Source: Novosphingobium sp. AAP83
Lineage (GTDB): Bacteria > Pseudomonadota > Alphaproteobacteria > Sphingomonadales > Sphingomonadaceae
Reading direction: 5' to 3'
DNA: 64,000 nucleotides
NCBI RefSeq assembly: GCF_001295795.1
Contig: NZ_LJHY01000016.1
Span: forward strand, 310,001 to 374,000
Each line of letters opens with the position of its first letter. Position 1 is the stretch's first letter. This document shows positions 513 to 13,186 of the stretch, one piece after another. Both the position numbers and the translations under genes were made by a program. The notes below the pieces were generated by a model. It worked only from the letters and a program-made list of their open reading frames with translations, made no database searches and was not told the DNA's origin.

Positions 513-1280
513 ATGACTGCCAGAAGCTCCAAATTGATCTTGGCTTTGGGAACGGCCCTGACGGTGACGGCCACTTCGGCTTATGCTCAGGAACAAGCAG
601 ACCGCGCCGCCAGCGCGGCTTCTTCAACCGAAATCATCGTAACCGCCCAGCGCCGCAGCGAGAGCTTGCAGAAGATCCCGGTGAGCTTGACCGCGGTTAC
701 CGCAGACATCATCCAATCCCGCCAGATCAACGATTTGAACCAGATCGCGCGTGCCGCGCCACCATTGCAGATCGGCAGCGACAACGGGTTTTTCGTGCGC
801 GGCGTGGGTACGCTGACATTCACCGACACGATCGATTCAAGCGTTGTGCTGTTGCTTGACGAAGTGAACCTTGGTCGCCTGTTCCTCGCTGCTCCGCAGT
901 TCATCGATCTTGAACGGATCGAGGTCTTGAACGGCCCGCAAGGCCTACTCTTCGGCAAAAATGCCTCGGCAGGTTTGCTCAATATCGTCACCGCCAAGCC
1001 TAAGCTTGGTGTCTATTCCGGCAAGACCGGTGTTGAAATCGTGCAACGCGATGCGGCCGGCAGTGCCAGTGGTGTAGCGGTCCGCGAAGTGCTGAACATC
1101 CCGCCAGGAACCACTGCTGCACTGCGCCTCAACGCCCTGTATTCGTTTCAGGAACCCGGCACCACTTTCGTCGACACACGGCAACCCGGCGTCCGCAACA
1201 ACGGCGGTCAGGCAACCCCGAAGCTGACGCTGGTAAGCACGTGCTCGCTCGACTCGTTCCGCTCTGTGGCGCGAATATGA
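513..1280 (+). pseudogene. TonB-dependent receptor, truncated after the plug domain
   Basis: Intact receptors of this family bring large ligands across the outer membrane and run about 700-850 residues; this frame stops after 255. It has a signal peptide ending ATSAYAQ, the plug domain with the hallmark IEVLNGPQGLLFGKNASAG, and only the first barrel strands. From about residue 240 the sequence no longer looks like a receptor and ends in a short unrelated tail. The start is secure, with GGAGGAGG at 501-508. It heads the catabolic operon, so it was probably the substrate importer before a deletion removed the barrel. A plug-only protein would not work as a transporter. The hairpin that follows may mark the deletion scar. 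Confidence 0.8.
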
Positions 1281-1407: not shown

Positions 1408-2523
1408 ATGCAAGATTTGAATGTCCTCGTGGTTGGCGCTGGTATTGGCGGACTGACATCTGCAATCGCGCTGCGCCGCAGCGGGCATCGCGTCACCCTG
1501 GCCGAACGTGATCCGCAATGGTCAGTTTACGGTGTCGGCATCATCCAGCAGTCCAACGTGGTTCGTGCGATGGAACAGCTTGGCATATTGGACGAATTCC
1601 TCTCTGCCGCCTGTGGTTTTGACGCGGTCGATATTTTCACGCCTGATGGCACGAAAGTGGCCCGGGTCCCCTCGCCCCGTCTGGTCGAAGGACGTCCGGC
1701 CAATGTCGGAATTGGCCGCCGCGCCTTGCAAAAGGTATTGGGCGATAGCGCGCAGGCGCTCGGTGCAAATCTGCGTCTCGGTCTGACAGTCCAGGCATTT
1801 GACGACGATGGCACCTGCGTGAACGTCCGTTTCTCGGATGGCACAGAGGCAGCCTATGGCGTCGTGATCGGCGCAGACGGAGTTTACTCCGATACGCGCA
1901 GGGCGATTTTTCCGGATACCGAAGGTCCGGAGTTCACCGGTCAGGCCGTTTGGCGATACAACCTGCCGCGCCTTGCCGATATGGATGCGCTGCAAGTCTA
2001 TAACGGACCGACCGGCATCGGGCTGGTGCCGATGAGCCACGATGTGATGTACATCTATGCCACTACGCCGGAACCCGATAACCCCCGCCATGCCAAAGAA
2101 GGTCTGGCCGGGGTCATGCGTGCCAAGCTGGCGAACTGCTCGCCTGCGATCAAGGCCTTGGCCGAACAGATTACCGACGATGAAGGCGTAGTCTATCGCC
2201 CGCTGGAAGCCCTGATGGTGCGCGGGCCTTGGCACAAAGGCCGGATCGGCCTGATTGGCGATGCCGTGCACGCAACCACGCCGCATCTGGGCCAAGGAGC
2301 GGGCATGGCCATCGAGGACAGCATCGTTTTGGCCGAAGAACTGACCCGCCATGACAGCGTCGAAGATGCCCTCGCGGCCTTCCGCGACCGCCGCTTTGAA
2401 CGCTGCCGCTATATTGTCGAGAGCAGTCTGGCGATTTGCAACGGACAATTGGGCAAAGGCCTGCCTGTCGACAACCACTTGGCCACCGGCGAAATGTTTG
2501 CCGTAACCGCACAACCGATCTGA
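1408..2523 (+). CDS. FAD-dependent aromatic-ring monooxygenase (class A flavoprotein)
   Basis: Predicted NAD(P)H- and FAD-dependent hydroxylase of the UbiH/PheA/salicylate-hydroxylase type that would put a hydroxyl on an aromatic ring before cleavage. The 371-residue protein has an N-terminal Rossmann motif GAGIGG (residues 10-15), the mid-protein GADGVYSDTR and the FAD-ribityl motif GDAVHATTPHLGQGAG. The ATG at 1408 was chosen because GAGG lies 10 bases upstream; GTG at 1405 and TTG at 1402 are also possible. Ten bases separate it from the dioxygenase gene. The monooxygenase-then-extradiol-dioxygenase order supports an aromatic substrate, but the exact one cannot be read from sequence. Confidence 0.87.
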   Translation: MQDLNVLVVGAGIGGLTSAIALRRSGHRVTLAERDPQWSVYGVGIIQQSNVVRAMEQLGILDEFLSAACGFDAVDIFTPDGTKVARVPSPRLVEGRPANVGIGRRALQKVLGDSAQALGANLRLGLTVQAFDDDGTCVNVRFSDGTEAAYGVVIGADGVYSDTRRAIFPDTEGPEFTGQAVWRYNLPRLADMDALQVYNGPTGIGLVPMSHDVMYIYATTPEPDNPRHAKEGLAGVMRAKLANCSPAIKALAEQITDDEGVVYRPLEALMVRGPWHKGRIGLIGDAVHATTPHLGQGAGMAIEDSIVLAEELTRHDSVEDALAAFRDRRFERCRYIVESSLAICNGQLGKGLPVDNHLATGEMFAVTAQPI

Positions 2524-2533
2524 GGGAAAAATC

Positions 2534-3436
2534 ATGAGCCGCGTGAACGACATCCGCTACGTCGGGTATGGTGTTGCCGATCTGGATGCTGAAAAGGCCT
2601 ATTATCTAGACTTGTGGGGCCTGGAACTGGTGGAAGGCAATGATACTACGGTCTGGTTGAAAACACCGGGGCATGACGAACATCATGTTGTCCGGTTGCG
2701 CAAAGCCGAAGCCAACCGCATCGACATTGTTGCCTTGGCAACCGAAGACCGCGCAAGCGTTGATGACCTGCATGGCAAGGTTGCAGCTTCAGGCGCAAAG
2801 ATCGTCCATGCCCCGCGCGACTTGACCAGCCCCGGGGGCGGATACGGCTTCCGTTTCTTTACACCCGATGGTTTGCAGTTCGAGATTTCGAGCGATGTCG
2901 CGCGCGGACCAGCGCGCGAGCTGGAGCGTTGGGAAGCTGTGCCCGAACGGATCAGCCACATCGTGCTCCACTCGCCCGATCATCACGGGCTGGTCAAATG
3001 GTTCTGCGATGTGCTCGGCTTCAAGATCAGCGATTGGCTCGGCGATTTCATGTGCTTCTTGCGCTGCAATACCGCGCATCACCGGCTTGCAATTTTGCCC
3101 GGGCCGCCATGCCTTGATCACGTGGCCTATGATATGTTGAGCGTGGACGACATGATGCGCGGCGCACACCGCCTGAAGGTCAAGGGCACAAACATCAGTT
3201 GGGGGCCGGGACGACATACCGCTGGCAACAACACGTTCAGCTATTTCGTCACACCGGGTGGCTTTGTGACCGAATATACCGCGGAACTCGAAGTGGTAGA
3301 TTTCGAAAACCGCGAACCCAAAGTCTACCCGCCAGCGCCGCTGGTGATGGACCAGTGGGGTATCGGCGTCGGCGGGCCACAAACCATGCCGCACTCTGTA
3401 GCTAATCCCGACCTATTCGTGTCGGCGGGAGATTGA
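2534..3436 (+). CDS. Type I extradiol ring-cleavage dioxygenase (VOC fold)
   Basis: Fe(II)-dependent enzyme expected to open a catechol ring next to the diol. Its 300 residues form two vicinal-oxygen-chelate modules. Spacing matches 2,3-dihydroxybiphenyl dioxygenase: metal ligands His142, His196 (in LDHVAYD) and Glu247 (in TEYTAE), with second-sphere His183, His228 and Tyr237 all present, so it should be active. GAGGG precedes the ATG with good spacing. Its stop lies directly before the hydrolase start, indicating coupled translation. It may cleave a catechol with a bulky substituent, but BphC-like and other catechol specificities cannot be told apart here. Confidence 0.9.
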   Translation: MSRVNDIRYVGYGVADLDAEKAYYLDLWGLELVEGNDTTVWLKTPGHDEHHVVRLRKAEANRIDIVALATEDRASVDDLHGKVAASGAKIVHAPRDLTSPGGGYGFRFFTPDGLQFEISSDVARGPARELERWEAVPERISHIVLHSPDHHGLVKWFCDVLGFKISDWLGDFMCFLRCNTAHHRLAILPGPPCLDHVAYDMLSVDDMMRGAHRLKVKGTNISWGPGRHTAGNNTFSYFVTPGGFVTEYTAELEVVDFENREPKVYPPAPLVMDQWGIGVGGPQTMPHSVANPDLFVSAGD

Positions 3437-3438
3437 TC

Positions 3439-4596
3439 GTGGCACTGTTTGAATACTTTCCGAATTACATCTGGAACCTCTCGGTCGCGATCGCGATGGA
3501 AAGCGGTGGCCGGATCGGTGAAATCATCGATATGTGCCAACCGATCAAGGATGCTGCCGCTTCCGGGTCTGATGCCGGAACGCCGCAATTCATGGCGCAA
3601 TGGGCCGCTATGGGTGCCAAGCTGCTTGAACTGGCATCAGAAGATGAAGCCAAAGGTCGCCTGTTTTCCGCGTCGGACAAGCTGGAGCGCGCCTCGCTCT
3701 ATCTGTTCACCGCCGAACGCATGCAGGGCCACGGCGCTCCGGGCCGCACCGAAACTTATGCCAAGGCGCGCACGGCTTTCGAGAAATCGACAGTGCTGGG
3801 AAAGCTCAACCGCGAACGGGTGGAAATCCCCTTGGCAACTGGCACCATGCCTGCGCTGTTCACCCGCGCACCCGGCGATGGGCCAAAGCCGGTGGTGGTG
3901 TTCTGCAACGGGTTGGATAGCTGCAAGGAATTGCTCTACTGGACCCGCCTGCCCCATGAACTGGCGCGGCGCGGCATTTCAACGCTCTGCGTAGATCAGC
4001 CCGGCAGTGGTGAGGCCTTGCGCCTTCAGAACTTGGCTGTTGACCCCCATAGCGAGAACTGGGCCTCCAAGGCCGTCGACTGGCTGGAACAACAGGCTGA
4101 TGTTGACCCCGCGCGTATCGGCATGACCGGTATCAGCCTTGGCGGCCACTTTGCCCCGCGCGCGGTTGCCTATGAGCCCCGCTTTGCCAGCGGCGCAGTT
4201 TGGGGCGCCAATCACAATTGGCGCGAAGTGCAGGACAAGCGCCGCGCCAATGAAGGCGAAAATCCGGTGCCGCATTACTGGGCGCACGTGTTCTGGGCAT
4301 TTGGTGCCATGGACATGGACGATTTCCTCGAACGGTCATCGGCGATGAACCTCAACGGCCACATGGACCGCATCAAGGTGCCATTCCTCGTCACGCACGG
4401 TGCCAAAGATCGCCAGATCAGCGTTGGCTATGCCGATGATCTTTATGAGCAACTGGTCAATTCGCCGCACCGTAAAAAGGTGATCTTCACCCCACGTGAA
4501 GGCGGTGTTGAGCATGTGGGCGCGGATAACATGTCTTATGGACGCGATCTGCTGGCCGACTGGTTTGCCGAGACTTTGGGTGGCAACACCAACTAA
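3439..4596 (+). CDS. Alpha/beta hydrolase, C-C bond hydrolase-like (2,6-dihydroxypseudooxynicotine hydrolase type)
   Basis: Predicted serine-type hydrolase acting on the meta-cleavage product or a related diketone. About 130 N-terminal helical residues precede the alpha/beta core, an architecture known from 2,6-dihydroxypseudooxynicotine hydrolase, which breaks a C-C bond. Nucleophile Ser233 (GISLGG), Asp324 (HGAKDR) and His359 (GVEHVG) form a plausible triad. GTG at 3439 is preferred because GGGAGA sits six bases upstream; TTG at 3433 would overlap the previous gene. Other FrsA-like esterases share the fold, so the specificity is inferred from position after an extradiol dioxygenase. Confidence 0.82.
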   Translation: MALFEYFPNYIWNLSVAIAMESGGRIGEIIDMCQPIKDAAASGSDAGTPQFMAQWAAMGAKLLELASEDEAKGRLFSASDKLERASLYLFTAERMQGHGAPGRTETYAKARTAFEKSTVLGKLNRERVEIPLATGTMPALFTRAPGDGPKPVVVFCNGLDSCKELLYWTRLPHELARRGISTLCVDQPGSGEALRLQNLAVDPHSENWASKAVDWLEQQADVDPARIGMTGISLGGHFAPRAVAYEPRFASGAVWGANHNWREVQDKRRANEGENPVPHYWAHVFWAFGAMDMDDFLERSSAMNLNGHMDRIKVPFLVTHGAKDRQISVGYADDLYEQLVNSPHRKKVIFTPREGGVEHVGADNMSYGRDLLADWFAETLGGNTN

Positions 4597-4626
4597 CCCC
4601 AACTTTTTGCCTGAATTGGAAAGACT

Positions 4627-5406
4627 ATGACGCGCCGATTTGTCGACCTCTCGATTACGCTTTGCAACGATGTGGTCAGCGACCCACCGTTCCTTCGCCC
4701 TGAAATCACCTATCAAAAGCATGGTGAGACGATGGACGAACTGGGCCATTTTTTCCCCGGCGTGACCGCAGACCAGACGCCCGATGGCGAAGGTTTTGCT
4801 GCGGTGGAATGGGTGAAGCTTACCACGCACAACGGCACGCATCTGGATGCGCCATGGCATTTCCACCCCACGCAAGACGGCGGCAAACCATCGCTGACGA
4901 TTGATGAAATCCCTCTCGAATGGTGTTTCCAGCGCGGCGTGAAGCTTGATTTTACCGCCCTGCCCGATGGCTATGTCGTCACCGCCGACGATGTTGCCAA
5001 AGAACTCGCGCGGATCGGCCATGATCTGCAACCGCTCGATATCGTGCTGGTCAATACCGCCGCTGGAAAGGCGCTGGGCGATCCCGATTATGTCAGCCGT
5101 GGCTGCGGCATGGGCTACGAGGCGACAATCTACCTCACCTCGCGCGGTGTGCGCGTGACCGGCACCGATGCCTGGAGCTGGGACGCACCCTTCGTCCACA
5201 CCGCGCGCAAGGTTGAGGAAACCGGTGATACTTCGTTGATCTGGGAAGGGCATAAGGCCGGTCGCGATATCGGCTATTGCCATCTCGAAAAGCTGCACAA
5301 CCTGGAAGTTCTGCCACCGCACGGCTTTACAGTCAGCTGTTTCCCGCACAAGATCCAAGGCGCATCAGCGGGATGGACCCGCGCCGTCGCCATTTTTGAG
5401 GATTGA
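4627..5406 (+). CDS. Cyclase-family metal-dependent hydrolase (kynurenine formamidase-like)
   Basis: A 259-residue member of the cyclase/KynB superfamily, Mn/Zn enzymes that hydrolyse amides or lactones or act on cyclic ketones. The defining HxGTHxDxPxHF motif is intact at residues 68-79 and supplies the metal ligands. GGAAAG precedes the ATG. It lies between the hydrolase and the FAH gene in the same operon, so it may open a lactone or process a side product of ring cleavage. No tryptophan-pathway neighbour is present, so a true kynurenine formamidase role is unlikely. Confidence 0.83.
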   Translation: MTRRFVDLSITLCNDVVSDPPFLRPEITYQKHGETMDELGHFFPGVTADQTPDGEGFAAVEWVKLTTHNGTHLDAPWHFHPTQDGGKPSLTIDEIPLEWCFQRGVKLDFTALPDGYVVTADDVAKELARIGHDLQPLDIVLVNTAAGKALGDPDYVSRGCGMGYEATIYLTSRGVRVTGTDAWSWDAPFVHTARKVEETGDTSLIWEGHKAGRDIGYCHLEKLHNLEVLPPHGFTVSCFPHKIQGASAGWTRAVAIFED

Positions 5407-5409
5407 TCA

Positions 5410-6372
5410 ATGCGCTTGGCAACCCGGCAAAATGGCACGCCCGATGGCGAACTGGTGATCGTATCGGCAGACGGCTTGCATTGCGCGCCCATCGCGGGCT
5501 TCCCGAACCTGCTCCAAGCGCTTGAGAACTGGCAGGCGGCGCAGCCTGCACTCATGCTGGCAGGACAAAGCCTCGCCGCAGGTTCGGGGGAGCACCTCGA
5601 TCCCGCAACCTTGCGCGCGCCCCTGCCTCGCTCATGGCAATGGCTCGATGGATCGGCCTTCCCTACCCACGGCGATTTGATGCAGGTGGCCTTTGGGCTT
5701 GACCCGATCGATAAGGTGCGCCCGCTGATGTATCAGGGCATGTCCGACCGGTTCTATGGCCCCAACGATCCCGTGCCCTTCCCCGATGAAAGCGACGGCA
5801 TCGATTTCGAAGGGGAATTCGGCGTAATCGTCGATGCTGTGCCGATGGGCACCAGCCCCGCCGATGCCGCCGCGCACATCCGCCTGATCGTCCAGATCAA
5901 CGATTGGTCGCTCCGCGCCATCGCCCCTGTTGAAATGAAGACCGGCTTTGGCTGGGTTCAGGCCAAGCCCGCGTGCAGCATGGCACCATTTGCTGTCACC
6001 CCCGATGAACTGGGCTCAGGCTGGCGCGATGGCCGCATTTGCCTTGATCTGGAAGTGGTGTGGAACGGCAAGCGGTTCGGCCTCGTCAACGGCGAACAGA
6101 TGGCGTTCTCGCTGCCCGAACTCGTCGCCCACGCCGCCCGCACGCGCGATCTTGTCGCTGGCACCATCATCGGCACCGGCACCGTCTCGAACGCAGAATA
6201 CGCCGTCTGCGGTTCTGCCTGCATATCCGAACGCCGCGCCATTGAAATCATCGCCGACGGTGCCCCCGCCACCAGCTTCATGCACTTTGGCGACACTATC
6301 CGCATGGAAGCGCGCGGGCCCGATGGGAACACCCTGTTCGGCGCGATTGATCAGCAGATCGTCAGCATCTGA
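5410..6372 (+). CDS. Fumarylacetoacetate hydrolase (FAH) family protein
   Basis: FAH-fold proteins hydrolyse, hydrate or decarboxylate 2-oxo and 1,3-diketo acids, typically late in ring-cleavage pathways. The 320-residue protein carries DFEGEFGVIVD, giving metal ligands Glu134 and Glu136, and an IND motif with Asp165. The N-terminal 90 residues form the usual small domain. It starts four bases after the cyclase stop and is the last gene before a strong terminator, so it probably handles the final 2-oxoacid of the operon. Hydratase, decarboxylase and hydrolase roles cannot be separated from sequence alone. Confidence 0.87.
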   Translation: MRLATRQNGTPDGELVIVSADGLHCAPIAGFPNLLQALENWQAAQPALMLAGQSLAAGSGEHLDPATLRAPLPRSWQWLDGSAFPTHGDLMQVAFGLDPIDKVRPLMYQGMSDRFYGPNDPVPFPDESDGIDFEGEFGVIVDAVPMGTSPADAAAHIRLIVQINDWSLRAIAPVEMKTGFGWVQAKPACSMAPFAVTPDELGSGWRDGRICLDLEVVWNGKRFGLVNGEQMAFSLPELVAHAARTRDLVAGTIIGTGTVSNAEYAVCGSACISERRAIEIIADGAPATSFMHFGDTIRMEARGPDGNTLFGAIDQQIVSI

Positions 6373-6487: not shown

Positions 6488-6515
6488 GGGCCAGCGCAAG
6501 CTGGCCCCTTTTTTT
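6488..6515 (+). terminator. Intrinsic terminator of the ring-cleavage operon
   Basis: GGGCCAGC (6488-6495) pairs with GCTGGCCC (6500-6507) around a GCAA tetraloop and is followed by a run of T to 6515. This is a textbook rho-independent terminator 115 bp after the FAH gene; the convergent reductase gene ends beyond it. Confidence 0.9.
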
Positions 6516-8397: not shown

Positions 8398-10017
8398 CTA
8401 CGGATTTTCACTTGCTGACTTTTCAAGATAGCTTGCGATCTGGAGCACGGTTTCCAGGTCATCGATCGGCGAAGCCACCATTTTTGTGCCCGGATAATAG
8501 GTTTGCGGGTTGGAGATGAAGGCCACCAGCGTATCGCGATCCCATTGCACGCTGGTCTTGGGATCTCGCAAAGCCGCAGAATAGCTGTATCCCGGCAATT
8601 GGCCGGACCGACGGGTGGAGACTCCGTTCAGGTTCGGTCCGATCTCTCCGGTGGTGAAGCTGCCGGCAACATGGCAACTGGCACAATTCTGCCCAAAGAG
8701 TTTGCGAGCGCGTTCTTCATCATATTTGAAATTGAACAATGTCTGGGTAAACCGCTCCTGATAGACGCCGCGGCTGTTGAAGTCTTTTATCATGTCGCCC
8801 GTAACCGGGTTCTGGAACGGCATTGCAACACGTTTCGCTTGGGCCGCGGAAGGCGCACCTGGCCGGATGCGCAGCAAACGGCCCTTTGAAGAGTCTGTTA
8901 TCGCATAGATAAAGCCATCCGGGCCGACAGCCACAGAACGAATCCGTTCCTTGATGTCATCCATCAACGCTTCTTCCTGCACCACAACATTGTCTTTGAT
9001 GCGCAGGCGGCGCACCACATGCCCCATCAGTTCGCTTGTAAAAAAGTCTCCGCGCCAGCGAGGGAACTGCGAGCCGTTGTAATAGACGAGATCGGACGGC
9101 GCACGTGATGGCGACCAGGATGCTACAGGATCCACGAACGCGGGATCTTCCTGCTTGTCGGACATGGCGCGCCCTGTGTAGTCAAAACCCCACGAAACCA
9201 ACGGCCAGCCATAGTTGCCACCAGGTTTTACGAGATTCAACTCGTCCCCACCCTTTGGTCCTAGATCAATGACATAGATGCGACCGTCGTCGGTGCGGGT
9301 GATCCCGGCAGAGTTCCGGAACCCGATTGCCCACAGTTCCGGCAGAGCACCTTCGACCTTGCTGAACGGACCGTTGGCGACGGCACGACCGTCACGGTCG
9401 ATATGGATGATCTTCCCGGAATGATTGTCGGTCCGTTGCACCATCCCGCGGCTCCCTTGCCCGCCGGAACCCACGCCAACCAGCATGGTCTTGTCAGGCA
9501 GGAACAGTATTCTGAGGATGCTGGGTCCTCCCGGCGGGGCTGGCCGGGCTGTGCTGAAGATTATCTGCTGATCAGCGAGGCGCTCGCCGTCAAAACGAGC
9601 CTTGAGGATCGATCCGGTCCTGGCGCTGTCGGTACCGGTTACGAATGTCAGGTAAAGTGTTTTGTTTGTTGCAAAATCAGGATCAAGCTTAACGTCCAGC
9701 AGACCATCGAAAATGCTGCCGTTCAATACCTCCGGCACCCCTTCAATGGCTTTTGGCTGCAAGGTTCCCTTTTTTACGATGCGCAACTTTCCAGGTCGTT
9801 CGGTGATCAGCATATCGCCGTTCGGTAACCACGCCATTGCCCACGGGTGATCCAATCCGTTGACCACCTCTTCAGTCCAGTATCCTCGATCATCCACGCG
9901 ATCGGCAGTTGCCGCACGGCTGAGGCCTGTCATCAGAAGGGCGAAACATGCGAATACCGAAATCGTCGGCGGACCGTAACGCCGCAACTGCGCGTTCCCT
10001 TTGCTGTTGTGTTTCAT
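8398..10017 (-). CDS. PQQ-dependent sugar dehydrogenase-type quinoprotein fused to cytochrome c
   Basis: A periplasmic oxidoreductase of the soluble glucose dehydrogenase/YliI beta-propeller family (residues about 40-420) with a C-terminal c-type cytochrome domain. Haem attaches at Cys445-Ala-Ser-Cys448-His449, and Met513 (in GTKM) is the likely distal ligand. A Sec signal peptide opens the protein. The ATG at 10017 has GAGGTG just upstream and replaces longer readings of the frame. The fusion would pass electrons from substrate through PQQ to haem and on to the respiratory chain. Divergent from the tetR gene with a 179-bp shared gap, it is probably under that repressor. The substrate could be an alcohol, aldehyde or sugar. 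Confidence 0.87.
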   Translation of the reverse strand: MKHNSKGNAQLRRYGPPTISVFACFALLMTGLSRAATADRVDDRGYWTEEVVNGLDHPWAMAWLPNGDMLITERPGKLRIVKKGTLQPKAIEGVPEVLNGSIFDGLLDVKLDPDFATNKTLYLTFVTGTDSARTGSILKARFDGERLADQQIIFSTARPAPPGGPSILRILFLPDKTMLVGVGSGGQGSRGMVQRTDNHSGKIIHIDRDGRAVANGPFSKVEGALPELWAIGFRNSAGITRTDDGRIYVIDLGPKGGDELNLVKPGGNYGWPLVSWGFDYTGRAMSDKQEDPAFVDPVASWSPSRAPSDLVYYNGSQFPRWRGDFFTSELMGHVVRRLRIKDNVVVQEEALMDDIKERIRSVAVGPDGFIYAITDSSKGRLLRIRPGAPSAAQAKRVAMPFQNPVTGDMIKDFNSRGVYQERFTQTLFNFKYDEERARKLFGQNCASCHVAGSFTTGEIGPNLNGVSTRRSGQLPGYSYSAALRDPKTSVQWDRDTLVAFISNPQTYYPGTKMVASPIDDLETVLQIASYLEKSASENP

Positions 10018-10196
10018 GACCACCTCGAAAAACTCCTTGCCTGCGCAGTTACTTTTGTAGAACGCAATTTTTCCTGCAGGCTGATGCCACGAGCATTTAC
10101 TCCCGGGCATTGCTGTCCATGCTCAAACCTTCTTCTCGATGACCTCAACGCCTGTCTTGTTTTGATTTTAGAAAAACTCTTCGGACATGATTGTGA

Positions 10197-10985
10197 ATGA
10201 AAATCAGCGACACCGATACTAACAGAGCGGCCATCCAGCGTCGTAAATATACAAGCGCGATCATGACAAAGCGGCGCCAGCGAGTCATTGATTGCGCCCA
10301 TCGTATTCTGGGTGAAGGCAACATTCCCGCACTCACGATCGAACGGCTGAGCCGTGAAGCGGAAGTGGCGCCCCGCACGATTTACCGCTTGTTTGGAAAC
10401 AAGGAAGGCGTGGTTCAGGCCACGGTGCAGGACCGGTTGAGCGAGGTGCGCAGGCATCTGGCCAAACGACAGGCCGAATACTCGATCGACGTCGTCTTTG
10501 CCGAGTTGGACTGGATGGTCTCGGAGATGGAGCGGGACGACGAATACGCGCGGGTTGTCATCGGCTTTTACTTCTCGATGGAGCAGCGCGAGGCCGCAAT
10601 CCAGGAATTGCGTTCGGTCGGTTACAACCGTTGCCGCAACTGGCTCGACCGTGAAATCCTGGCGGGCAATACCGAAAAGCGCCTTGATCTCGAGCGCATT
10701 GCCCAAGAGTTCGTGTCCATGGAATTTCTGGTCTACCAACGTTGGGCCACGCGTAAAGTAACGGCCGAGCAATGCCGGTTGGAACTGCACAGCAACTTTC
10801 TCAAGATGGCCGCTTTGGTGCTTACCGGAGCCGCCCGCGAGGCTTGCATCAAGATGTTGGTCGCGAAGCAAGCCCAGCTCGGTTCGAGCGAAATCGGCTC
10901 CTTGGCTTCGACCAACCGAGCGGAACGGGATGCCGGTCTCCACTTTGCAGGGGCGATTTCTAGCGCGGAAGAGCATAAGCGATAA
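10197..10985 (+). CDS. TetR/AcrR-family transcriptional regulator
   Basis: A 262-residue regulator. Helix-turn-helix residues lie near positions 42-65 (LTIERLSREAEVAPRTIYRLF, here with an intact YRLFGNKEG motif), followed by a helical ligand-binding domain. An N-terminal extension of about 20 basic residues precedes the usual start; the ATG at 10261-10270 area offers a shorter alternative. It is divergent from the quinoprotein-cytochrome gene and its 3' end overlaps the convergent PQQ dehydrogenase gene by 26 bp. Local control of one or both quinoproteins is the simplest reading. Confidence 0.86.
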   Translation: MKISDTDTNRAAIQRRKYTSAIMTKRRQRVIDCAHRILGEGNIPALTIERLSREAEVAPRTIYRLFGNKEGVVQATVQDRLSEVRRHLAKRQAEYSIDVVFAELDWMVSEMERDDEYARVVIGFYFSMEQREAAIQELRSVGYNRCRNWLDREILAGNTEKRLDLERIAQEFVSMEFLVYQRWATRKVTAEQCRLELHSNFLKMAALVLTGAAREACIKMLVAKQAQLGSSEIGSLASTNRAERDAGLHFAGAISSAEEHKR

Positions 10986-12942
10986 TCTCGTCCGAGCGCC
11001 CGGTCTGGAACCACATGTGCTGGCCTGACGCGACGACCACATATTGACGCCCGCCTGCCATGTAACTCATCGGCGTCGTCTGGCTGCCGCCGGGCAACTT
11101 GTCTCGCCACAGTTCCTTCCCGCTTTTCATCTCAAATGCGCGTAGAAACCCGTCCATGGTAGCGGCGATGAAAAGGACCCCGCCAGCGGTGGTGATCGGG
11201 CCTCCGATGTTCGGCGTACCAAGCCCGACGTCGAACCATAAGGGAACAGGAAATTCGTGGTTGATCGTGCCCAATGGCACGTCCCATAGTGTTTTCCCTG
11301 TCGCCAGATCGATTGCCGTCAGCCCTCCCCATGGTGGCTTTGTACAGGGCGCGCCCATTGGTGAAAGCAGCCATTCGCGCTTTACCTCGTAAGGCGTGCC
11401 AGCCATCGGCGAGACATCCTCGTGTGCCGAAAGTTGCACTGTACCGCTGCCGCTTCCCTCACGTTTGCGGAGCTTGATGACAGAGGCGATGCGGCTGCTG
11501 TTGATGAAATAGATTTGCCTTGCTGGATCGATTGCACCAGCACCCCAGTTAGCCCCCCCCGAGGCGGCGGGATACGTGATGGTGCCGCGCTCGGTAATGG
11601 GGGTAAACAAGCCTTCGCTGCGGTATTGCGCAATCAGATTGCGGCATTGAGCCTTGTCCCAGAAGGTAAAGCCCCACGCATCGTCCGGCGTCACCTTTTG
11701 CGGAACTATCGGGGCAGGCAAACGCGGACGAGGCTGCGTGGGCGATAGCCATTCTCCGGGAACTCCGCCTTGCGGAACCGCCATTTCATCAATGGGAAAC
11801 AGCGGGGCGCCGGTGCGACGATCGAGGATGAAGACAAAGCCCTGTTTGGTCGGCTGAACCAGCGCGGGAATCGATTTGCCGTTACGGACGATATCCATCA
11901 GCGTTGGCTGGGCAGGGGTATCATAATCCCAGATGTCGTGATGAATAAGCTGCCGGGCCCAGACAAGCCTGCCGCTTCGCGCATCAAGCGCCACGATGCT
12001 GTTAGCGTGCCGATTGTCGCCTGGCCGCAATCCGCCATAGTAATCCGGGGAAGCGCTCGACGTTGGCAGAAAAACAAGGCCGCGTTCTTCGTCTGCTGCC
12101 ATGACCGACCACATGTTGGCCGCACCGGTCGTATGGCGACTATCGCCGCCCCAATCCTTATCTGCACCGCCCTCCTGCGGAATGGGATCAAAAGTCCATG
12201 CAGGCGCACCGGTTCTGATGTCAAATGCACGAATAATGCCGCGCGGGGCAGACGCCCGGACATTGTCCAAAACCGAGGAGCCAACGATGATGCGGTCGGA
12301 CACCACGGTTGCCGGAGCCGCAAGTTTGACCTCACCCTTGTGATGAACAGGGCCGGGATCAACACGCACGACCCCACCCGATCCAAAGTCCGGGCAAGGC
12401 TTCCCCGTACGGGCATCAAGGACGACCAACTGCAAGTCGACACTTGCAAGCACGATACGTGTCTGACAGGCGGCTGTGTCCGGCAATGCATTATCCTGCC
12501 ATTGCGACAGGCCGCGACAGGCATATTGATCGGGCAAGGCCAAATCGGGATCGACCTTGGAGTCATAAACCCACACCTCCCGCCCTGTCGCCGGATTCAG
12601 AGCGATGACACGCGAAAACGGCGTGCAGGTGATCAGATTTCCTGCTGCCAGAATTGGCGTTGTCTCATTTGTGCTGTTGACGAGCTGTGCCGGCTGACGC
12701 CGGGTGAGCTCGCCCGTGCTGTAACGCCAAGCAACCTTGAGGTGCCCTACATTTCCGGGAGTTATCTGTGCGGCTGCGGTATAGCGTGTGCCCGCATTGT
12801 TAGCGCCCCATTGCGCCCATTCGGTGTTGGCTGGGCCTCCTTGCGGGATTACCAACGGAGGCAGCGCAGGATTTGCACGCCACCAGAGCACGCCGGCAGC
12901 AATAGCGACCGTTGCGATTACGAGAAGGAGCCGACGAGCCAT
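10960..12942 (-). CDS. Membrane-anchored PQQ-dependent dehydrogenase (glucose/quinate/alcohol dehydrogenase family)
   Basis: A 660-residue eight-bladed quinoprotein that would oxidise an alcohol, polyol or aldose in the periplasm and feed electrons to quinone. A single N-terminal helix (MARRLLLVIATVAIAAGVLW) anchors it, in contrast to the five-helix anchor of E. coli Gcd. Propeller tryptophan-docking repeats (GxxLWxxxL-like, e.g. GKTLWDVPLGT and GKELWRDKLP) are visible. The ATG at 12942 lies four bases past the lipoyl gene's stop, so this is the last gene of the long - strand operon. The substrate is unresolved; adjacency to a diketone-type cupin suggests a secondary alcohol or diol. Confidence 0.87.
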   Translation of the reverse strand: MARRLLLVIATVAIAAGVLWWRANPALPPLVIPQGGPANTEWAQWGANNAGTRYTAAAQITPGNVGHLKVAWRYSTGELTRRQPAQLVNSTNETTPILAAGNLITCTPFSRVIALNPATGREVWVYDSKVDPDLALPDQYACRGLSQWQDNALPDTAACQTRIVLASVDLQLVVLDARTGKPCPDFGSGGVVRVDPGPVHHKGEVKLAAPATVVSDRIIVGSSVLDNVRASAPRGIIRAFDIRTGAPAWTFDPIPQEGGADKDWGGDSRHTTGAANMWSVMAADEERGLVFLPTSSASPDYYGGLRPGDNRHANSIVALDARSGRLVWARQLIHHDIWDYDTPAQPTLMDIVRNGKSIPALVQPTKQGFVFILDRRTGAPLFPIDEMAVPQGGVPGEWLSPTQPRPRLPAPIVPQKVTPDDAWGFTFWDKAQCRNLIAQYRSEGLFTPITERGTITYPAASGGANWGAGAIDPARQIYFINSSRIASVIKLRKREGSGSGTVQLSAHEDVSPMAGTPYEVKREWLLSPMGAPCTKPPWGGLTAIDLATGKTLWDVPLGTINHEFPVPLWFDVGLGTPNIGGPITTAGGVLFIAATMDGFLRAFEMKSGKELWRDKLPGGSQTTPMSYMAGGRQYVVVASGQHMWFQTGRSDEIIAYALPR

Positions 12943-12946
12943 GGAA

Positions 12947-13186
12947 TCAGACTTCGATCGTGGCAATATGAGCACGCACGTCGACAGTATCGCCTTCGTC
13001 GGCAACAATCTCGATCAACGTGCCAGCCGCAGGTGAAGGGACCTCCACGGTTGTCTTTGCGGCTTCAATTTCCACCAGTGGCTCGCCATCGGCGACAGTA
13101 TCACCGACAGATTTGAGCCAACGGACGATCTCGCCATCTTGCATTCCCATACCGAATTGAGGCAGGAGTACCTTGAGTTTTGCCAT
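12947..13186 (-). CDS. Free-standing lipoyl-domain protein
   Basis: Only 79 residues long, this is a single biotinyl/lipoyl-carrier domain starting MAKLKVLLPQFGMGMQDGEI. Lys44 in EIEAAKTTVEV is the expected lipoylation site. Normal E2 subunits add a peripheral-subunit-binding domain and a catalytic acyltransferase core; both are absent here and the frame ends cleanly. It sits 10 bases after E1 beta and four before the PQQ dehydrogenase gene. It presumably accepts an acyl group from the neighbouring E1, like an H-protein-style shuttle. Borrowing of an E2 core and E3 from elsewhere in the genome remains possible. Confidence 0.9.
   Translation of the reverse strand: MAKLKVLLPQFGMGMQDGEIVRWLKSVGDTVADGEPLVEIEAAKTTVEVPSPAAGTLIEIVADEGDTVDVRAHIATIEV

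Follow-up and report, generated by a model that had tools for sequence, protein, structure and literature searches.

A probable operon for meta-cleavage of the flavonoid A ring in Novosphingobium sp. AAP83

The 64,000-nucleotide stretch of the Novosphingobium sp. AAP83 genome analysed here (contig NZ_LJHY01000016.1, G000:C8:310001-374000 in our numbering of the 4.23-Mb draft genome; hereafter the window) carries an operon whose probable function is meta-cleavage of the flavonoid A ring. It consists of five uninterrupted genes on the + strand at 1408-6372, separated by intergenic gaps of 2-30 bases, and encodes, in 5′ to 3′ order, a flavin adenine dinucleotide (FAD) monooxygenase, a type I extradiol dioxygenase, an α/β hydrolase, a cyclase-family hydrolase and a FAH-family hydrolase. 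With moderate confidence, we believe that the operon degrades aglycones of 5,7-dihydroxy plant flavonoids, the apigenin/luteolin class that also occurs as C-glycosides, via cleavage of the A ring. Gene content, active sites, fold, gene order and neighbourhood associations were computed, and from these we infer the substrate, the regiochemistry and the order of steps. Plants produce flavonoids and flavonoid C-glycosides in abundance and use them for signalling and defence, and few gene sets for their oxidative breakdown have been published. A 2021 paper described the fde locus as the sole genetic determinant of flavonoid utilisation then known (PMC8552027). For a large group of bacteria from soil and water, the operon is likely to serve as a catabolic route.

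A sequence-only reading of this DNA had proposed a five-gene meta-cleavage operon followed by a terminator, and this was borne out by the intact open reading frames (ORFs), the family matches and a terminator at 6488-6507. The family matches lie far beyond what chance would give. Active-site motifs were read in four of the enzymes, namely the monooxygenase, dioxygenase, hydrolase and cyclase, and all were present. The monooxygenase (1408-2523, with ATG at 1408 and the stop at 2523; the mechanical ORF starts from TTG 1402) matched Pfam FAD_binding_3 at 1e-28, was assigned to group A and the PRK06847 subfamily (466 bits against a cut-off of 372), and has the FAD motifs GAGIGG and GDAVH. The dioxygenase (2534-3436) has two Glyoxalase domains (1e-16) and shows both features of a type I extradiol enzyme, two VOC domains and a 2-His-1-carboxylate site (H142, H196, E247). 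Its nearest solved structure by sequence was PDB 3b59, a close relative (509.6 bits), of which the molecule name says merely glyoxalase/bleomycin resistance protein/dioxygenase. The cyclase (4627-5406, a PF04199 metal hydrolase) matched Pfam Cyclase at 2e-35 with the motif HNGTHLDAPWH in place, and the FAH gene (5410-6372, PF01557 with PF18288) matched FAA_hydrolase at 2e-32 and FAA_hydro_N_2 at 3e-21. A group A FAD monooxygenase thus adjoins a type I extradiol (VOC) dioxygenase, as in pathways of the fde/ifc type. In comparison with three relatives, the operon genes look to be under purifying change, with nonsynonymous change (dN) of 0.10-0.25 against synonymous change (dS) of 0.93-1.57 in 14 comparisons out of 15; in the remaining one, a relative yielded no match to FAH.

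The α/β hydrolase (3439-4596, with a GTG start; the mechanical ORF starts from TTG 3433) is 385 amino acids long, has the catalytic triad S233/D324/H359 and was matched by a set of α/β-hydrolase models in Pfam, the best at 1e-8. The MhpC/BphD meta-cleavage product hydrolases are about 280 amino acids long, and their models or structures were absent among the listed Pfam, PDB and fold matches, although such absence proves nothing. The best PDB sequence match was 2jbw, the 2,6-dihydroxypseudooxynicotine (DHPON) hydrolase, at 2e-16, followed by the Yellowish-green 1-like hydrolase; identity to 2jbw is about 20-22%, and the Ser and Asp of the triad align. In an AlphaFold model built from 27 sequences (mean pLDDT 78.8), the N-domain helices span residues 2-119 (about 120 residues) and the α/β core begins at 124, in agreement with the helical N-terminus noticed earlier. 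Foldseek placed 2jbw first and Wdyg1p next, and the likeness to DHPON hydrolase claimed in the sequence-only reading is therefore found in both sequence and fold. The full-length VIA-align superposition on 2jbw gave Z 32.1 and a root-mean-square deviation (rmsd) of 3.1 over 334 residues, and those on Ayg1p, Wdyg1p and AntI gave Z 28.6-29.9 and rmsd 3.0-3.3 over 339-354 residues. However, acylaminoacyl peptidase 3fnb equals 2jbw at Z 32.1 and the FrsA entries are close behind at Z 28.6-29.1, so the reaction cannot be assigned from the fold by itself. The best full-length matches are nevertheless C-C hydrolases, and the enzyme does not group with the small esterases. The reaction catalysed by DHPON hydrolase and the Ayg1/AntI enzymes is hydrolysis of a C-C bond beside an acyl group, as is partly stated in their PDB titles, and on the basis of sequence and model we propose that the window hydrolase is a retro-Claisen C-C hydrolase.

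Since 2jbw is the best match by both PDB sequence search and Foldseek, the operon could also be read as a pathway for N-heterocyclic diols, nicotine- or quinoline-like, which had been put forward as likely substrates. We consider this very improbable, because identity to 2jbw is so low, the polyketide-shortening hydrolases match nearly equally, and among the scanned neighbours no Pfam name clearly indicates a gene for N-heterocycle breakdown. The neighbours indicate plant flavonoid glycosides instead, and the gene types are as in fde/ifc. A nicotine-like pathway was dropped as a candidate on these grounds, the polyketide-shortening fold matches being nearly as good and the neighbourhood being of the plant-glycoside type.

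Neighbouring genes that point to plant flavonoid glycosides are found in relatives. In Sphingobium TomTYG65, where the cluster is uninterrupted, the orthologous operon is accompanied by a GMC oxidase with a Gluconate_2-dh3 gene, a Gfo/Idh/MocA oxidoreductase and two TIM-barrel proteins, and it is also near a GH3 β-glucosidase and PF19906, the β subunit of C-glycoside deglycosidase (CGDB). The AAP83 genome has a single PF19906 match, C8:308947-309156, which adjoins the LysR gene of the operon and lies 0.85 kb ahead of the window. Remnants of the deglycosidase α and β subunits, a Gfo/Idh/MocA oxidoreductase, a TIM-barrel protein and an MFS transporter occupy C8:307848-309414, with large parts lost, and this decay of the uptake and deglycosylation module spares all five catabolic genes. 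Among 298 genomes of the family, 17 had CGDB and 51 had the hydrolase (E <= 1e-60), and all 17 CGDB genomes carried the hydrolase (Fisher 7e-15, with genomes treated as independent). When window-branch hydrolases alone were counted, they were present in 38 genomes, including 16 of the 17 with CGDB. The two genes were at most 17 kb apart in 6 of the 17 genomes.

LigB (PF02900) was used as a control for general aromatic catabolism. It was detected in at least 164 of the 298 genomes and in at least 14 of the 17 CGDB genomes (p 0.016). Counted from the stronger LigB matches listed, at least 11 of 38 genomes (40 hydrolase places) have a LigB-family gene no more than 20 kb from the window-branch hydrolase, where a simple length argument predicts about 0.5. 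In G222, the single LigB-type neighbourhood examined, the operon neighbours were LigK, PrpF, two amidohydrolases, LigA, a Gfo/Idh/MocA oxidoreductase with PF19858, and a PobA homologue; PobA was also near the operon in Sphingomonas R1. Such LigB, LigA, LigK and PobA neighbours fit release of the B ring as 4-hydroxybenzoate or protocatechuate. The window operon has no neighbour of this kind in the region read, and the best LigB match of the genome is on contig C34.

The operon is recurrent across many sphingomonads, and the best plasmid-collection matches of the dioxygenase and hydrolase came from Novosphingobium, Sphingobium, Sphingomonas and Croceicoccus. The order monooxygenase-dioxygenase-hydrolase was found in 10 of 15 relatives' loci, and the dioxygenase was directly 5′ of the hydrolase in 13; L131 and L134 have no dioxygenase just before the hydrolase, that of L134 being regarded as a more distant hydrolase. 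A cyclase is downstream in 9 of the 15 loci, in 3 of them after at least one other gene, and a cupin takes the cyclase position in L123, L167 and L168 (genomes G011, G101 and G165) and, after an MFS gene, in Sphingomonas R1. Separate trees of the monooxygenase, dioxygenase and hydrolase each place the window with these relatives. The phylogeny that had been called for earlier, of the dioxygenase and the hydrolase, thus groups the window with sphingomonads, with the dioxygenase deeply split from the fde/ifc-like ones. The uncommon substrate suggested by the sequence-only reading is supported insofar as the substrate appears unusual, but the operon is not a one-off, since it recurs in sphingomonads, related clusters exist in other proteobacteria and its gene types are known from fde/ifc. 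A search of the open-access literature by titles and abstract starts found no paper describing this sphingomonad operon.

Additional related clusters were observed in the AAP83 genome. A second one, on G000:C64 (L117, L119), has a hydrolase, a dioxygenase and a FAH protein 64%, 57% and 59% identical to those of the window, together with cupins, another FAD monooxygenase, LysR, MFS and a GH106 α-L-rhamnosidase, and it looks like a catabolic island for flavonoid O-glycosides of the rutinoside type. A third set, on G000:C38 (L118), has a hydrolase of 43% identity, a VanA-type Rieske oxygenase, a TonB receptor, a cupin and a PRK06847-type monooxygenase; its VOC dioxygenase is 38% identical to the fde-like one of Azospirillum. 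A third GH106 rhamnosidase match, at G000:C42:7958-10621, contains two in-frame TAG stops.

In the route that we propose, the FAD monooxygenase would add an 8-OH next to the 7-OH, and the extradiol dioxygenase would cut C8-C8a to give a pyranone with a C5 acyl side chain. The α/β hydrolase would then make a retro-Claisen cut of the C4a-C5 acyl bond, yielding oxaloacetate and a 4-hydroxy-6-aryl-2-pyranone, a step modelled on DHPON hydrolase and Ayg1/AntI, which cut acyl-aryl and polyketide bonds. The cyclase-family enzyme would open the pyranone lactone, the FAH enzyme would split the diketone acid by β-diketone hydrolysis into (di)hydroxybenzoate and acetoacetate, and the released benzoate would enter the protocatechuate 4,5-cleavage pathway.

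This scheme leans on the ifc cluster for isoflavone catabolism in Variovorax sp. V35. It comprises IfcA, IfcB, two cupins and a hydrolase that shares 25% identity with DHPON hydrolase, all five genes being said to resemble fde genes (PMC11069340). According to the same paper, the product of IfcA is 8-hydroxydaidzein, IfcB yielded a peak matching X2 with some substrate left over, and the pyranone X3 (2-hydroxy-4-pyranone) is an intermediate on which the cupins IfcD act; the X2-to-X3 step, which turns the ring-fission product into the pyranone, has no gene assigned in that paper. Cleavage at C8-C8a and then at C4a-C5 is proposed because X3, by its published name, keeps C8a with its oxygen and has lost C5-C8. 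In a 5-hydroxyflavonoid, C5 would become an acyl carbonyl on the 1,3-dicarbonyl carbon C4a, which is the bond type of DHPON/Ayg1-type hydrolases, and the four-carbon piece would be oxaloacetate. Daidzein has no 5-OH, C5 would not be an acyl carbon, and so the hydrolase would not be needed. The operon offers a candidate enzyme for the X2-to-X3 step on 5-hydroxylated flavonoids. More tentatively, and at somewhat less than even confidence, we suggest that the DHPON-hydrolase-like enzyme may be a general missing step of bacterial flavonoid A-ring catabolism, which takes off the 5-OH-derived acyl arm as oxaloacetate and is needed for 5-hydroxylated but not 5-deoxy flavonoids, and that the sphingomonad route may be built around an unrelated dioxygenase and coupled to C-glycoside deglycosylation.

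For comparison with the two published pathways, fde-like Azospirillum and ifc-like Variovorax loci served as stand-ins for the named H. seropedicae Fde and V35 Ifc proteins. Genome contigs were scanned with a profile of the hydrolase alignment, in which the Azospirillum sequence came first, so the scan is biased to that branch. It confirmed at least 579 hydrolase relatives, and the best 80 loci, among which H. seropedicae was not included, were used. Of these best 80 of at least 579 loci, 77 had an Azospirillum-like VOC dioxygenase, 75 had a Rieske protein, and part of them also had a related FAD monooxygenase, cyclase or cupin; 26 were aligned with the window hydrolase and were 53-57% identical to it. 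Clusters with a related hydrolase therefore recur in other proteobacteria. Between Variovorax L161 and the fde-like Azospirillum locus, identity is 65% for the VOC proteins and 36% for the FAD monooxygenases, which is consistent with the published identities of 65.8% for IfcB-FdeC and 36.3% for IfcA-FdeE (PMC11069340) without being proof of identity. Identity between the FAD monooxygenases of the window and L161 is 36%. The seven ifc-like Variovorax loci (within L152-L164) have VOC, Rieske, FAD monooxygenase, two FAH genes and a cupin, and L161, scanned gene by gene, additionally has a BKACE gene; no α/β hydrolase was present among ten genes scanned around L161/L162. L148 and L150, two of the nine Variovorax loci, carry a hydrolase homologue (55-56%) beside fde-like genes.

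A number of observations weigh against the assignment to 5,7-dihydroxyflavonoids. The window dioxygenase is 27% identical to the fde-like Azospirillum VOC and 30%, over 149 residues, to that of ifc-like L161, and in the tree it falls into a separate deep clade; judged against these stand-ins, it is not orthologous to FdeC/IfcB, and because of this distance and deep split the position of cleavage may differ. In the fde locus of Herbaspirillum seropedicae SmR1, which serves naringenin catabolism, FdeE works with a Rieske partner, FdeD (PMC8552027), and no FdeD-type partner was found among the ORFs and Pfam matches within 1408-6372. As the dioxygenase groups apart and the Rieske partner is absent, the window operon, judged by its sequences, does not strictly belong to the fde/ifc family. 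Deletion of the DHPON-hydrolase-like gene in Variovorax left daidzein degradation unaffected (PMC11069340), and a homologue of the window hydrolase was absent at E 1e-3 in seven of the nine Variovorax loci, the ifc-like ones. Both results are consistent with a need for the hydrolase that is limited to 5-hydroxylated flavonoids.

The neighbourhood evidence has its own counterweights. The association tests treat related genomes as independent, 11 of the 17 CGDB genomes have the hydrolase and CGDB on separate contigs or at a distance above 17 kb, and 34 of the 51 hydrolase genomes have no CGDB, so C-glycosides are not the sole source. At the window copy, the uptake (TonB receptor) and deglycosylation genes are decayed, and for this reason the copy may depend on imported aglycones or may be in the course of being lost. 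LigB, which marks lignin catabolism, shows a mild enrichment in CGDB genomes as well, and the aromatics degraders US6-1 and PP1Y are hosts among the matches. This would suit a generic meta-cleavage operon that acts on phenolics of lignin type or xenobiotic origin, such as alkylcatechols and biphenyl-like compounds, with the deglycosidase link merely marking plant-associated catabolic generalists. We regard such an operon as improbable, since CGDB is tied far more tightly to the hydrolase than to LigB, in 6 genomes physically, and alkylcatechol pathways are not known to use a retro-Claisen-type hydrolase together with a cyclase or cupin and FAH.

Less improbable, yet still unlikely, is a substrate other than a flavonoid among the acylated resorcinol or phloroglucinol aromatics that are also found as C-glycosides, such as xanthones (norathyriol from mangiferin), dihydrochalcones or anthrones, to which the same logic of hydroxylation, extradiol cleavage and retro-Claisen cut would apply. 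Flavonoids, xanthones and anthraquinones are all represented among the C-glycosides on which C-deglycosylation enzymes act (PMC8563793), the dioxygenase is of a subfamily other than the fde/ifc-like ones, and the close fold relatives of the hydrolase shorten polyketides and were solved with naphthols bound. On the other hand, LigB nearby, with LigA, LigK and PobA where examined, fits the release of a hydroxyphenyl B ring as benzoate, which xanthones and anthrones would presumably not yield. Aglycones of 5,7-dihydroxyflavonoids remain the substrates that we favour.

As for the surroundings of the operon, the window start cuts a LysR-type regulator gene, of which the N-terminal part lies at 2-373 on the - strand (HTH_1, LysR_substrate). 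The whole gene, C8:309465-310373, encodes 302 amino acids and is divergent from the operon. Its product shares 43% identity with the LysR that accompanies the US6-1 operon, and 8 of the 15 relatives' loci have a LysR resembling that US6-1 protein at 42-79% identity; FdeR, the regulator of fde, is also LysR-type. A TonB-dependent receptor remnant at 513-1280 (+ strand) retains the plug domain only (Pfam Plug), the β-barrel being absent, and matches (34%) residues 72-281 of an 873-amino-acid receptor ORF at the same place in a relative. Between this remnant and the operon is a hairpin with a 15-bp perfect inverted repeat (1303-1347, + strand), and the RNA fold of 1295-1365 gave -33.6 kcal/mol with z -4.9. 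Tested as a mobile repeat, the hairpin proved to be present in a single copy in the genome. A sigma-70-like promoter was sought upstream of the operon and none was found. The intrinsic terminator at 6488-6507 (+ strand) has an 8-bp stem, a T7 tail and a fold z of -3.5, and the terminator scan total of 11 was near the chance expectation (8.8). Further downstream, 8398-13008 contains a glucose/sorbosone dehydrogenase fused to cytochrome c and a PQQ dehydrogenase, both on the - strand, with a TetR gene on the + strand between them.

Compared with known systems, the hydrolase resembles DHPON hydrolase 2jbw as an α/β hydrolase with a helical N-domain and the same fold over its full length, and differs from it in sequence, in operon context and in presumed substrate. 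The polyketide-shortening hydrolases Ayg1p, Wdyg1p and AntI share the full-length fold and are known to hydrolyse C-C bonds of polyketide-like substrates, whereas they are biosynthetic enzymes of 17-21% identity to the window hydrolase. At the level of the operon, fde of H. seropedicae SmR1 likewise combines a FAD monooxygenase (FdeE, 8-hydroxylation) with a glyoxalase-fold ring-cleavage dioxygenase (FdeC) (PMC8552027), but FdeE is paired with the Rieske protein FdeD, while the window operon has no Rieske gene and is accompanied by a truncated TonB receptor and C-deglycosidase remnants. The ifc cluster of V35 shares a FAD monooxygenase (IfcA), a glyoxalase-type IfcB and a DHPON-hydrolase-like hydrolase with the window, but has cupins where the window has a cyclase, and its hydrolase is dispensable for daidzein (PMC11069340). 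What is new here relative to fde and ifc is the different dioxygenase subfamily, the lack of a Rieske partner, and the decayed uptake and deglycosylation genes.

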